This document shows, piece by piece, positions 9,962 through 29,316 of a DNA stretch of 32,984 nt. The number at the start of each line of letters is the position of its first letter. Position 1 is the stretch's first letter. The position numbers were made by a program, and so were the translations under genes. The notes under the pieces were generated by a model, which worked only from the letters and a program-made list of their open reading frames with translations, ran no database searches and was not told where the DNA came from. Source of the stretch: Candidatus Methylacidiphilales bacterium (GTDB lineage Bacteria; Verrucomicrobiota; Verrucomicrobiia; Methylacidiphilales; JAAUTS01); the NCBI GenBank assembly GCA_028713655.1, contig JAQTNW010000040.1, positions 1-32,984 on the forward strand, written 5' to 3'.

Positions 9962-11395
9962 ATGGCATCAAAATATCTACATGCGAAGAGCGGCAAGGAA
10001 GCTCTGGACTTTGCCAAGAAGAACGAATGCAAACTCGTGGATTTCAAATTCACGGACATTCCGGGCACTTGGCAGCACTTCACGACCACTCTGGGGGAAA
10101 TCGACGAGAAGACATTTGACGAAGGCCTGGGTTTTGACGGTTCGTCCATCCGCGGATGGAAAGCCATCAACAACTCCGACATGCTGGTCATCCCCGACCC
10201 GGCGACCGCCTTCATCGATCCCTTCAATGTCGAGCCCACGCTGAGCCTGACCTGTACTGTGATTGATCCGCTCACGAAGCAGACGTATGAGCGCGATCCC
10301 CGCAGCATCGGTATCCGGGCCGAAAATTATCTCAAGAGCACCGGCATCGCCGATACCGCGTTCTTCGGACCCGAAGCCGAGTTCTTCGTGTTCGATGACG
10401 TGCGGTACCAGAGCAGTTCCAACATCCAATTCTACAGCGTGGATTCTGTGGAAGCGATCTGGAACTCAGGCCGCGAAGAAGGCCCGAACCTGGGTTATAA
10501 AATCCGCCACAAGGAAGGCTACCTCCCGGTGGCCCCGGCAGATACCCAGCAGGACCTGCGCAATGAGATGACTCTTCTCATGGAAGATTTGGGTGTCCAG
10601 ATCGAACGGCAGCACCACGAAGTGGCCACTGCCGGCCAGGCGGAGATCGATGTCCGTTTTGATAGCCTGGTGCGTACGGGTGACAAGATGGCGATCTACA
10701 AGTACGTGGTCAAGAATGTGGCCAGGAAGTATGGCAAAACGGCCACCTTCATGCCCAAGCCGCTGTTCGGTGACAACGGTTCAGGTATGCACACCCACCA
10801 GAGCTTGTGGAAGGATGGCAAACCGCTGTTCGCCGGCAACGGCTACGGCAACCTGAGCGAGATGGCCCTGTTTTATATCGGGGGCATCATCAAACACGCC
10901 CGGGCGTTGACCGCCATCACCAACCCCACTACCAACAGCTACAAGCGTTTGGTGCCGGGTTTTGAGGCTCCGGTGACGTTTGCCTACTCGGCCCGTAACC
11001 GCAGTGCGGCCATCCGCATTCCCACCTACTCGTCGAATCCCAAGACAATCCGCGTCGAATTCCGCACTCCGGATCCGGCGGCCAATCCCTACCTGGCCTG
11101 CGCGGCCATGTTGATGGCCGGTTTGGACGGGGTACAGAACCGGATTCATCCGGGAGATCCCATCGACAAGAACCTCTACGAACTGCCTGCTGAAGAGCTG
11201 GCCAAGGTTCCGGTGGCCCCGGATTCCTTGAAGGGTGCGATCGAGGCTCTGGAAGCCGACCACGACTTCCTGACCAAGGGTGACGTCTTCACGACGGACC
11301 TGATCGAAACCCTCCTGGCATCCCGTAAGAATGAATACGACCAGTTGCGTCTGCGTCCGCATCCTTACGAGTTCTTCATGTATTACGACGTTTAA
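9962..11395 (+). CDS. glnA: Glutamine synthetase, type I
   Basis: GlnA makes glutamine from glutamate, ammonia and ATP as a cytoplasmic dodecamer. The 477-residue product has [20 protein letters not shown] (metal-binding Glu), [33 protein letters not shown] and a NLYELP motif whose Tyr406 corresponds to the adenylylation site of the GSI-beta class. This implies control by adenylylation as well as by PII. AAGGAAA about 11 nt upstream of the ATG is the likely ribosome binding site. A strong terminator follows the stop. Confidence 0.97.
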
Positions 11396-11430
11396 TTATT
11401 AACACTGTCCTGCAAAGGATAGGCTCTCAA

Positions 11431-11465
11431 AAGGCGCCCGGCTTTTAATAGCGGGCGCCTTTTTG
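11431..11465 (+). terminator. Intrinsic terminator of the amt-glnK-glnA operon
   Basis: AAGGCGCCCG (11431-11440) pairs perfectly with CGGGCGCCTT (11452-11461) and is followed by a T tract ending near 11465. It lies about 35 nt after the glnA stop and is the strongest terminator in the window. Confidence 0.88.
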
Positions 11466-11487
11466 TTGGCACGGCCCATGCTATAAT
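11460..11487 (+). promoter_or_regulatory. Putative promoter with perfect TATAAT just before the next ATG
   Basis: TATAAT at 11482-11487 is a perfect -10 box. The best -35 at the right distance is TTTTTG (11460-11465, 16-base spacer), shared with the T tract of the glnA terminator. Transcription would start at about 11493-11495, at or next to the ATG at 11495, so the mRNA may be leaderless. No Shine-Dalgarno sequence precedes that ATG, which agrees. Confidence 0.5.
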
Positions 11488-11494
11488 TATATCC

Positions 11495-12082
11495 ATGAGC
11501 TGGACAATCCGACCTAATGTCTTCTGGCATGCTGTTCTGGGCGCTGTTGTTCTCTTTTTTGTCGGCTGGATGGACTATGTCTCAGTCGGCCAGCTTGATT
11601 TCTCGGTTTTGTATTATCTGCCAATCGCCCTCTGGGCATGGCATATCGGACTGGGTCCGGCGATTTTCATGGCTTGCGTTAGCACCTGCGGGTTCACGAT
11701 CAATGATTATCTCAATGGAAACACGTATCCGCACGAGATTTTCCGTGTCTGCAGTGCGGGGATACACGGGGCTGCATATATGGCCGTGGCGATTTGTGTT
11801 CATTTGCTTCACAAACGGTTCCTGCGCGAGAGGGAGTTGAACTTCCGCCTTGCGAAAACCGTGGGCGAATTGGACAAATCCATGACCGAGGTCCGGAAGC
11901 TCAGGGGGCAGGCTCTCACCATTTGTCCGGTAACGCGCCGGATCAAGATGGGCGGAGAATGGATCGGGATAGAAAGCTTCCTGCGCGAGAATCTGGAGAT
12001 GCCGGTGCAGGAGGAAGTTTCCGGGGAAGTCGTGTCCGGCATGGCGGAAAAGATGATCGAGTACTACGGCTGGCGCGAGTGA
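11495..12082 (+). CDS. Membrane protein with sensor-like helices and a degenerate signalling tail
   Basis: The 195-residue protein has about four hydrophobic helices (near residues 13-30, 38-50, 54-72 and 90-106), like the membrane input domain of some histidine kinases and diguanylate cyclases, then a charged coiled-coil segment (107-137). The C-terminal part, LRGQALTICPVTRRIKMGGEW and on to about residue 168, resembles the LxGLLPICxxCKxIRDDxGYW tail often attached to PAS, response-regulator or PP2C proteins. Here only the first cysteine (Cys144) remains, so any metal site is lost. No kinase, cyclase or output domain is present. It could be a truncated sensor or a stand-alone membrane regulator. 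This is inference from pattern memory only. Confidence 0.65.
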   Translation: MSWTIRPNVFWHAVLGAVVLFFVGWMDYVSVGQLDFSVLYYLPIALWAWHIGLGPAIFMACVSTCGFTINDYLNGNTYPHEIFRVCSAGIHGAAYMAVAICVHLLHKRFLRERELNFRLAKTVGELDKSMTEVRKLRGQALTICPVTRRIKMGGEWIGIESFLRENLEMPVQEEVSGEVVSGMAEKMIEYYGWRE

Positions 12083-26126: not shown

Positions 26127-27212
26127 ATGGGAAAACCTAAATTATTCATTCCGGGTCCGATCCAAGTGTCGGACAAAACATTCAAAGCTTTCTGCCAGCC
26201 GATGATCGGGCACCGATCCAAGGATTTCCAGGAACTCTATGCACGCGTGCAGCCGGGCCTGAAAAAACTTTTTTACACCGAACAACCGGTGTTCGTGAAC
26301 ACGGGTTCCGCGTGGTCTGCGATGGAAGCTTCCCTTCGGAATCTTGTCGGCAAGAAAGTGCTGAACTGCATGAACGGTGCTTTTTCCGACAAATGGTACG
26401 GCGTGGCCAACGCCTGCGGGAAGCCGGCGGAAAAACTGCAGGTGGAATGGGGCCAACCGATTTCGCCGGAGTTGATTGACGCCAAATTGAAGACCGGCGA
26501 GTTCGATGCGATCACGATCATTCACAACGAGACATCGACCGGTACGATGAGCCCGATTGAAGACATCGCGAAGGTACTTAAAAAATATCCGGATGTGGTT
26601 TCCATTGTGGATGTGGTTTCCTCCCTGAGCGTGAAGAAAATCCCGTTTGACGAACTGGGCCTCGACGTGATGCTGGCCGGAACCCAGAAAGCCCTGGCCC
26701 TGCCGCCCGGCGCCTCGGTTTTTGCCGTCTCGGAAAAGGCGTTCAAAAAAGCGGCCCTGCAAAAAGACCGCGGGTATTATCTCGATTTTGTGGAATTCCG
26801 CGCGAACCACGACAAGAACATGACGCCGACCACGCCGTCGATTTCGCATTTTTACGCGTTGGAAAGCAAGCTGGAGGATATTTTCCAGGAAGGGCTGGAA
26901 GCGCGCTACGCCCGGCATCTGGAAAATGCGAAGCTCGCGCGCGCGTGGGCGAAGAAGCACGGGTTCGAGCTGTTCCCGAAGGCCGGGTTCGAATCGATTT
27001 CACTGACCTGCATCAAGAACCACCGGGATGTCGAACTGCCGGCCAATCTTAACAAGTGGCTGAAGCAAAACAAGAATGCGGTGATTGACGGCGGCTACGG
27101 CAAGATCAAGGGCGCCACATTCCGCATTTCGCACATGGGCGACGAAAGCACCGCCAACATCGCCGAGTTGCTCGGCTGGCTGGACGAAGGCCTGAAGACG
27201 CTCGGCGTTTGA
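26127..27212 (+). CDS. Class V pyridoxal-phosphate aminotransferase (alanine-glyoxylate / serine-pyruvate type)
   Basis: The 361-residue protein opens with KLFIPGPIQVSDKTFKAF and IGHRSKDFQELY, the typical start of the alanine-glyoxylate/serine-pyruvate group. The pyridoxal-phosphate lysine is Lys188 in AGTQKALALPPG, and the cofactor-binding aspartate is in SIVDVVSS. HNETSTGTMSPI is also typical of the fold. Substrates cannot be fixed from sequence: serine, alanine, aspartate or phosphoserine with glyoxylate, pyruvate or 2-oxoglutarate are all possible, and some bacteria use such an enzyme for serine synthesis. It stands alone after sucCD, with its own promoter candidate, and is followed by a repeat block. 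Confidence 0.88.
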   Translation: MGKPKLFIPGPIQVSDKTFKAFCQPMIGHRSKDFQELYARVQPGLKKLFYTEQPVFVNTGSAWSAMEASLRNLVGKKVLNCMNGAFSDKWYGVANACGKPAEKLQVEWGQPISPELIDAKLKTGEFDAITIIHNETSTGTMSPIEDIAKVLKKYPDVVSIVDVVSSLSVKKIPFDELGLDVMLAGTQKALALPPGASVFAVSEKAFKKAALQKDRGYYLDFVEFRANHDKNMTPTTPSISHFYALESKLEDIFQEGLEARYARHLENAKLARAWAKKHGFELFPKAGFESISLTCIKNHRDVELPANLNKWLKQNKNAVIDGGYGKIKGATFRISHMGDESTANIAELLGWLDEGLKTLGV

Positions 27213-27440
27213 TCGGATGGAGGGACGGCCTCCGTGCCGTCCCACAAATCCAGGTCCGCGCGTTTTGCTGGCGCAAGTGGCTCGAGGGAAACTGATGTGG
27301 AGTGCGGTGGCAAGCCGATGGTTAAGGAGGCGCGACACCGCTTTGGATTTCCAGGAAAAGACAACTCCGACATCCGTCGCGAGCGAGCTCCAATATGCAT
27401 CGCGAGTAAAAAACGTCCGCCGCGGCGGACGCACTCCAGG
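27213..27440. repeat. Repeat block with two REP-like palindromes
   Basis: GGGACGGC (27222-27229), a 6-nt loop and GCCGTCCC (27236-27243) form one hairpin right after the aminotransferase stop. CGTCCGCCGCGGCGGACG (27414-27431) is a perfect 18-bp palindrome. Between them lie GGAGTGCGGTGGCAAG and GACACCGCTTTGG, which recall TTTGGACTGCG at the edge of the 23757-23855 block. The 300-nt gap to the antitoxin gene holds no credible ORF. Confidence 0.65.
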
Positions 27441-27512: not shown

Positions 27513-27719
27513 ATGAACATCACTGAGATTCTCGATGAACTGCCTAAACTCAAGGTGGAAGAACGGGATGTGATCCTTCACCGCATTGAGGAATTGGATG
27601 AGCTGGCCAGCCCTGCGATGTTGGCCGCAATCGATGAAGCGGAGGCCTCTCCTGTCGAGAATGACTTGTCGGCGGAAGAGTTGCGCCAGCGGGTGAAGCA
27701 ATGGACGCATACCAAGTAG
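27513..27719 (+). CDS. Small antitoxin-like protein (addiction module component, Unstab_antitox / PF09720-like)
   Basis: The 68-residue acidic protein reads MNITEILDELPKLKVEERDV, then a middle ending in EAEASPVENDLSAEELRQRV. The pattern of an N-terminal helix with EER, a central AAIDEAE and a C-terminal W(A)EELRxRV-like helix is that of the short RelE/ParE-associated antitoxins of the PF09720 type. In full modules the gene overlaps or abuts a ParE-like toxin gene. Here the overlapping downstream gene (19 nt overlap) encodes a membrane protein instead, and no ParE-like ORF is found nearby. It may be an orphan or part of another kind of module. Confidence 0.7.
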   Translation: MNITEILDELPKLKVEERDVILHRIEELDELASPAMLAAIDEAEASPVENDLSAEELRQRVKQWTHTK

Positions 27720-28264
27720 TTGCAACTTTAATTTTGATCGCACTTCTGTGGTTCCAACTTTGGAAGCATGATGGAGTCCTGTCTGGGTTGCCACTTTCCT
27801 TTAGAATTCAAAATGGCCTTGTCACAACAGTCTTGGTGGCTGGCTATGCTGCCACGTTGCCTTCAATCGCATGGGCGCTAACACATTCCGATACTATTTT
27901 GAGTAAACTGTGGGTGCGGGTGGGAATGTTCGACCCGATTATTGCCACGATCATGTGGATATTTACCCAAATTGCCGGTGTGATGGCATTGAGCATGAGT
28001 TTCATGGTGGCCCAAAGAAAAAAGGGAATGAACAAGGTTATGGGAAAGCTGATTCCGTATTTTACCTTCTTTGCTTGGTTTAATTTTTTGATCGGATATC
28101 AAAAATCATCCGGAAACGATGGCGTTGGTTGCTTCGCTATAATCTTTGCTGGAAGCATGCTTCTATTTGGCGTAGTGACGTTTTGGGTGAGAAAATTTTA
28201 CTGTTCAGATAAAGCCGACCAGTTTTTCGATCAAAGACTTGGACCCGACTTAAACTCTATCTGA
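27701..28264 (+). CDS. Five-helix membrane protein of unknown function, overlapping the antitoxin-like gene
   Basis: The 187-residue product has hydrophobic helices at about 6-21, 39-60, 78-105, 117-133 and 143-163 and a polar C-terminus (YCSDKADQFFDQRLGPDLNSI). No family is recognised. Its ATG at 27701 lies 19 nt inside the antitoxin-like gene, in another frame; the next in-frame start (TTG near 27734) would remove most of the first helix. The DNA from about 27720 is visibly more AT-rich than nearby housekeeping genes, suggesting transfer. The first six codons may derive from a lost toxin gene, with the membrane ORF joined to them, or the pair may be a genuine two-gene unit. Nothing in it matches a ParE/RelE fold. 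Confidence 0.65.
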   Translation: MDAYQVVATLILIALLWFQLWKHDGVLSGLPLSFRIQNGLVTTVLVAGYAATLPSIAWALTHSDTILSKLWVRVGMFDPIIATIMWIFTQIAGVMALSMSFMVAQRKKGMNKVMGKLIPYFTFFAWFNFLIGYQKSSGNDGVGCFAIIFAGSMLLFGVVTFWVRKFYCSDKADQFFDQRLGPDLNSI

Positions 28265-28333
28265 CCTGAATCGGGCCAACTCGGAAATCCTCCCCGAGGC
28301 CCCAAACCATTCAAAAATGTGTTTTGAGTGGGA

Positions 28334-28400
28334 GCCTACCGCAACGCGGTAGCGTCTTTCAGCCCAGGGTTGGCGCGAGTCTGCGAGAGCCTACCCTGGG
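28334..28400. repeat. REP-like double hairpin downstream of the envelope cluster
   Basis: CTACCGC (28336-28342), AAC loop, GCGGTAG (28346-28352) forms a tight hairpin. CCCAGGGT (28363-28370) pairs with ACCCTGGG (28393-28400) around a 22-nt loop. GAGCCTACC occurs at both 28333 and 28388. It lies between the convergent ends of the membrane protein gene and the minus-strand envelope cluster, where it could also help terminate transcription. Confidence 0.7.
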
Positions 28401-28407
28401 TACTTAT

Positions 28408-29316
28408 TCAAAAATTCATGCGTTGCATGAGGGCCAGGGCGCATTGCTCGATGATTTCGGCGGAGGTTACCTGGTTGTAGCGCCGTTCCTTGCGGTCGCC
28501 GAAGCGGCGGTTGAAGCCGAAGAGTGAGTTGGAATTCACCTGGGCGAGCTTGACGCCGTCCTTCAGGCTCACGGCGGTCACGGTCAGTTCAAGCCGCACT
28601 TCCTTCTGGTCATCGCCCGAGGGCATGGGAATGACGACGGTCTTCTGCCGGGCGAGCACTTCGATTACAATGTCGGCGGATTTCTGCAATGCCTCCACTT
28701 CCTGCCGTTCCTTGTCGGTCTTGGGAGGGGTGAGGAAATTGGCGTCGGCATCCTTGAATTTGGTCAGGGCCACCTCGGCGATTTTTTGATCCACAATCTT
28801 GCTTCCCGCCTCAAAGAACGGGCGCTGGATGACTTCCTCGATTTCCCGGGCCTGGGCCTCGGTGACCGGAGCCACACCGAGCTCGCGTTCGGTGTTGACG
28901 CGGACTTTGGTGCTTGCGCTATCAATCTGTTCGCCGCCTTTGCCCGTGACGTTGTTGTTCCCGGACTGGTTTTTGTTGTCGTTCCCGATTTGGACGTTGC
29001 TGTTGCCCGTGCTGGGGATGGTGTCGCCCTTGGTTTTGCTGTCGGATTCCACTTCCACGGCATCAAGCATTTCGCCGCGGTTTTTGACCAGCGAACGGTT
29101 GACGTAAACCAGCAATTTGGGTTTGCCGGCTTTTTGGTATTGGGTGCGGAAACCATTCACCGTGCCATCGTAGTCTTCAATCGGCATGGCCGGACCGGTG
29201 GTTGCGGGAGCCGAGCTTTTGGCAACGGGTGGGGGCTGACTGGGTTCGCTATCGCCCCGGACAACGGCAGGCGCAAGGCTGAGGGCCAGCGGCAACAGGA
29301 GGATGCAGGGTTTCAT
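28408..29316 (-). CDS. Secreted/periplasmic protein of unknown function, last gene of the lpoB cluster
   Basis: The 302-residue product starts with a Sec signal peptide (residues 1-21, LLLPLALSLAPAVVRG). Then come a Pro/Ser/Ala-rich stretch, a conserved-looking segment RTQYQKAGKPKLLVYVNRSL, an Asn/Gly-rich insert (about 104-128, GNSNVQIGNDNKNQSGNNN) and an alpha/beta C-terminal half ending AEIIEQCALALMQRMNF. KLLVYVNR and the VRLELTVTAVSLKDG strand pair recall CsgG/LpoB-like folds, but this is only a pattern impression. It starts 10 nt after ycfL and is the fourth gene of the cluster, so a role with the lipoproteins at the envelope is likely. Confidence 0.75.
   Translation of the reverse strand: MKPCILLLPLALSLAPAVVRGDSEPSQPPPVAKSSAPATTGPAMPIEDYDGTVNGFRTQYQKAGKPKLLVYVNRSLVKNRGEMLDAVEVESDSKTKGDTIPSTGNSNVQIGNDNKNQSGNNNVTGKGGEQIDSASTKVRVNTERELGVAPVTEAQAREIEEVIQRPFFEAGSKIVDQKIAEVALTKFKDADANFLTPPKTDKERQEVEALQKSADIVIEVLARQKTVVIPMPSGDDQKEVRLELTVTAVSLKDGVKLAQVNSNSLFGFNRRFGDRKERRYNQVTSAEIIEQCALALMQRMNF

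Follow-up and report, generated by a model that had tools for sequence, protein, structure and literature searches.

An orphan antitoxin gene in a Methylacidiphilales bacterium, with a foreign membrane-protein reading frame probably joined to the start of its lost ParE toxin

The window analysed here, a stretch of 32,984 nt from a draft genome of Candidatus Methylacidiphilales bacterium, contains a pair of overlapping genes lying between two repeats (Table 1). The first gene encodes a protein of 68 aa, while the second—which extends from 27701 to 28264 and shares 19 nt (27701-27719) with the first—encodes a predicted membrane protein of 187 aa. These positions and the overlap agree with a preliminary description of the locus made from the sequence, which also presented the second gene as AT rich and as coding for five membrane helices. 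Both of these properties were recovered in our analysis. The membrane ORF has a GC content of 43% and a GC3 of 0.47, against 55-59% GC and a GC3 of about 0.7 in the neighbouring genes, and five hydrophobic segments are detected in its product at a relaxed Kyte-Doolittle threshold of 1.3, with three at 1.6. That the 187-aa ORF encodes a membrane protein is thus credible as a sequence-based prediction. A single-sequence AlphaFold model of the product consists of helices only (pLDDT of 54). Promoter and terminator scans returned nothing above chance, and Rfam gave no match in the window.

Table 1. Features of the antitoxin locus and its flanks (window coordinates)
Feature	Position	Strand	Remarks
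Orphan antitoxin gene, 68 aa, assigned to a ParE-associated antitoxin family	27513..27719	+	Relatives at most 72% identical
Putative remnant (5' end) of the ParE toxin gene, with which the membrane ORF now begins	27701..27721	+	Overlap plus 1-2 nt
Putative replacement DNA: 180 further codons of the membrane-protein ORF, 43% GC	27722..28264	+	No detectable homologue
Dispersed genomic repeat, upstream side	27294..27438		At least 40 partial matches in the genome; aligned to the C35 copy
Dispersed genomic repeat, downstream side	28311..28415		19 matches in the genome; contains an inverted repeat, 28363-28400

Repeats do flank the pair on both sides, as had been pointed out, but their use as a sign of acquired DNA does not carry far. 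They belong to dispersed families, with the numbers of matches listed in Table 1, and they are therefore weak evidence for acquisition. Both repeat families also occur side by side elsewhere in the genome (G000:C35:22701-22936), arranged in the same order and orientation as in the window and with some 20 bp between them. This single case would fit an insertion between the repeats of either the antitoxin-membrane segment or a toxin-bearing ancestor of it.

The first finding concerns the 68-aa protein, which had been described as an antitoxin of the PF09720 type. The family assignment has to be abandoned. Pfam, NCBIfam, PADLOC and PHROGs contain no match to this protein; PF09720 (Unstab_antitox) stays below its gathering score and, in hmmscan searches taken to E = 10, matches neither the protein nor nine of its relatives; and a PF09720 search of the bacterium's own genome finds four other members and not this one. 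Comparison of a profile of the 68-aa family with five PF09720 members gives a probability of 42.5%, which is at most suggestive of a distant kinship, while a value of 97.5% comes from a mixed set that is not independent, since it held sequences picked by their similarity to the 68-aa protein. The more general claim that the protein is an antitoxin nevertheless holds, on the basis of homology and of gene association with ParE. Relatives were found by tblastn at 23 places in 14 genomes among 98 related ones, and a family model (A1) built from ten of these relatives extends the antitoxin family over the class, with 27 distinct loci at E < 1e-12 besides the one in the window. In 23 of the 27 a ParE gene directly follows the antitoxin gene, mostly overlapping it, and the toxin genes downstream of the closer relatives are ParE by Pfam (PF05016). 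Because ParE lies downstream in most relatives, the 68-aa protein is supported, by family and gene association, as an antitoxin of a separate ParE-associated family, whose members have the upstream, overlapping position typical of ParE-associated type II antitoxins. A membrane gene is the partner in none of the 27 other members, and no relative of the antitoxin was found on viruses or plasmids. The genome itself has an intact antitoxin/ParE pair of the same family on contig C42 (L026), the antitoxin of which is 43% identical to the 68-aa protein.

The remaining four of the 27 loci are without an intact toxin. In one of them (L008, G042:C102, ~11181-11500), the antitoxin has an in-frame stop and the ParE toxin is truncated and followed by an unrelated secreted-protein-like ORF. 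Another (L020, G000:C11, ~56460-56660, minus strand) belongs to the same genome as the window and is a frameshifted antitoxin relic without toxin, 55% identical to the 68-aa protein and with a near-identical C-terminal stretch (ENDLSAEELRQRV). The last two, L085 and L088, have no toxin. Toxin loss is thus recurrent in this family. As a separate observation, a more distant relative of the antitoxin (L024, G048:C22) stands alone, and the place of the toxin is taken by a thioredoxin-like gene.

The second finding, which bears on the fate of the toxin in the window, comes from the closest relative of the 68-aa protein (L006, 72% identity), found in a genome (G045) of the same order and another family. 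There, the antitoxin gene is followed by a ParE gene (PF05016, E = 2.4e-16), the two overlapping by the identical 19 nt, and the toxin starts with MGAYQVVIT where the membrane ORF starts with MDAYQVVAT. At the DNA level, this locus and that in the window share about 75% identity over the antitoxin gene, with homology ending within about 2 nt of its stop codon. Identity per 30 nt is 63-83% up to 27722 and 23-40% thereafter, the maximum-likelihood breakpoint is 27720 (27719-27721 within 2 lnL), and the break in composition coincides with it. Since homology runs through the overlap and is then followed by unrelated DNA, the seven-residue stretch MDAYQVV at the start of the membrane ORF (MGAYQVV in L006) is well supported as a relic of the old ParE toxin start. 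This is what had been proposed as one of two options in the preliminary description, namely a replaced toxin gene whose start was taken over by the membrane ORF. We also considered that a remnant of the toxin might lie further downstream or be concealed within the membrane ORF, and rejected this because a sensitive six-frame HMM search found no trace of ParE in the window or inside that ORF. With no toxin gene beside the antitoxin, this is not a complete type II toxin-antitoxin locus; it has an intact antitoxin frame at a site without toxin, which is the hallmark of an orphan antitoxin.

The explanation that we consider likely is therefore a decayed type II toxin-antitoxin locus, consisting of an orphan antitoxin and of a toxin start captured in frame by foreign membrane-protein DNA. 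The ancestor would have been an antitoxin/ParE pair with the 19-nt gene overlap, in which the DNA just past the antitoxin stop was replaced by foreign AT-rich DNA that carried a complete or partial membrane-protein gene. We infer both this order of events and the arrival of the membrane DNA by horizontal transfer. The new DNA would have happened to be open in the frame of the toxin, and the resulting in-frame join would let the membrane ORF use the toxin's start codon, with its translation presumably coupled to that of the antitoxin. No convincing direct repeats, of the kind left by a transposon, border the replaced segment. Being harmless on its own, the antitoxin would have persisted after the toxin was gone; it may still be able to neutralise ParE toxins of related loci, perhaps among them that of the C42 paralogue.

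The antitoxin frame is undamaged and shows no decay. When changes are polarised with L007 as the outgroup, the window branch has 14 synonymous and 4 nonsynonymous changes in the antitoxin against 134:453 possible (Fisher p = 2e-6, on small counts and with no mutational-bias model), which argues that the antitoxin was probably constrained for most of this branch. The corresponding ratio on the L006 branch is 7:12. This leaves two options, a recent loss of the toxin or an antitoxin that still serves a purpose. This absence of decay speaks against a mere remnant, as does the position of the breakpoint almost exactly at the antitoxin stop, which would be rare for a random insertion in a toxin gene of about 300 nt and would be predicted by a precise partner swap.

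The membrane ORF itself has no homologue in Pfam, NCBIfam, PADLOC, PHROGs or the PDB, in IMG/VR, in phage and plasmid records or in GTDB genome contigs. In several hundred genomes of relatives and of the same order, class and phylum, tblastn found chance-level matches only, such as one of 30% identity over 74 aa (E = 7e-4) with an internal stop, in one genome among 384. Matches to PsiE, EMC3 and YidC, all with E values of 0.05 or worse, were set aside as hydrophobic noise. Of 20,000 dinucleotide shuffles, only 2 leave the 180 codons beyond the overlap open, which argues that the frame is not due to chance. Between the toxin ATG and residue 76, the in-frame starts are TTG and GTG only, with no clear ribosome-binding site, and the ORF would thus either have lost its 5' end or have the toxin ATG as its true start. 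The former underlies a sub-case of the decayed-locus explanation, in which the ORF is a non-functional 5'-truncated fragment that is open only because it is recent, the antitoxin being an ordinary orphan nearing loss. This is possible, although we lean against it. The restriction of alternative starts to TTG and GTG without a clear ribosome-binding site, the lack of homologues and the sister antitoxin relic in the same genome, which is already frameshifted, are all in line with such a fragment, but 180 of 180 codons are open, five plausible helices are kept and the antitoxin is undamaged.

The other option in the preliminary description, a module with a membrane-acting partner, received no support. 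A true two-gene module, in which the antitoxin swapped ParE for a membrane-acting toxin that it controls or neutralises, is in our view very unlikely. Neither a homologue of the membrane protein nor another such pair was found in the several hundred related genomes, IMG/VR, phages, plasmids and GTDB contigs, so that the recurrence in other genomes that marks a toxin-antitoxin module with a membrane toxin is missing among those searched; and the other intact members of the antitoxin family all pair with ParE-type toxins. Furthermore, five hydrophobic segments in 187 aa are more than is typical of small membrane toxins. What makes this module conceivable is an antitoxin that is intact and constrained and an exchange at its stop codon that kept both overlap and frame. 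In addition, other antitoxins are known to exchange their partners, membrane-depolarising toxins being among those taken up (PMC10440598). Its more specific form, in which the ParE toxin was exchanged exactly at the gene overlap for a new five-helix membrane toxin neutralised or regulated by the antitoxin, would draw on two features, the precise breakpoint and the intact antitoxin, and is slightly less likely still. Finally, although the genome is a 90-contig draft and low-GC DNA abuts the antitoxin abruptly, it is very unlikely that the junction is a chimera of metagenome assembly masking an intact antitoxin/ParE pair, because a return to host-like sequence downstream would take two false joins some 545 nt apart, sequence of normal composition continues on both sides, and the assembly has no second copy of the antitoxin beside ParE, the C42 paralogue being only 43% identical.

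Comparison with known systems highlights similarities and differences. Like ParE/RelE type II loci (PF05016), the locus has the antitoxin first, the 19-nt overlap, and the toxin start codon with the first seven codons; unlike in these loci, the toxin body is absent and an unrelated membrane ORF is found instead. Orphan antitoxins are abundant in Klebsiella pneumoniae, where about half have a CDS of unknown function in the toxin position (PMC7192599). As in these cases, an antitoxin persists in the window where a toxin-antitoxin pair once stood but the toxin is gone; what differs is that the new CDS continues in frame from the start of the toxin itself. A small antitoxin gene adjoining a membrane protein gene is also seen in the Panacea/NetFlax network, where promiscuous antitoxins have membrane-active partners in pairs that recur across genomes (PMC10440598), and in ToxM-ToxR, where ToxM is a ParE-fold toxin with transmembrane parts that keeps its BECR/ParE domain (PMC11980606). 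However, Panacea is an unrelated antitoxin domain and the pair in the window does not recur in the genomes searched, and the BECR/ParE domain is absent from the membrane ORF.

As a decayed toxin-antitoxin locus, this site would offer a clear snapshot of toxin loss: other DNA has taken the place of the toxin body, the antitoxin and the overlapping start have been spared, and an unrelated gene has gained a translation start that was already in place and coupled. Should selection still maintain the antitoxin without its toxin, it would be a natural case in which anti-addiction, or the cross-neutralisation of paralogous ParE toxins, could be tested. What is notable is the clean in-frame capture of the toxin start together with an antitoxin that looks constrained; the locus is otherwise ordinary, orphaned antitoxins being common. 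A different toxin-antitoxin pair occupies the corresponding place in a sister genome of the same taxonomic family (L056, G004:C168, 2650-3176), where the gene downstream of an aminotransferase gene orthologous to that at 26127-27212 in the window encodes a canonical PF09720 antitoxin, with a ParE-like toxin encoded next to it on the downstream side.
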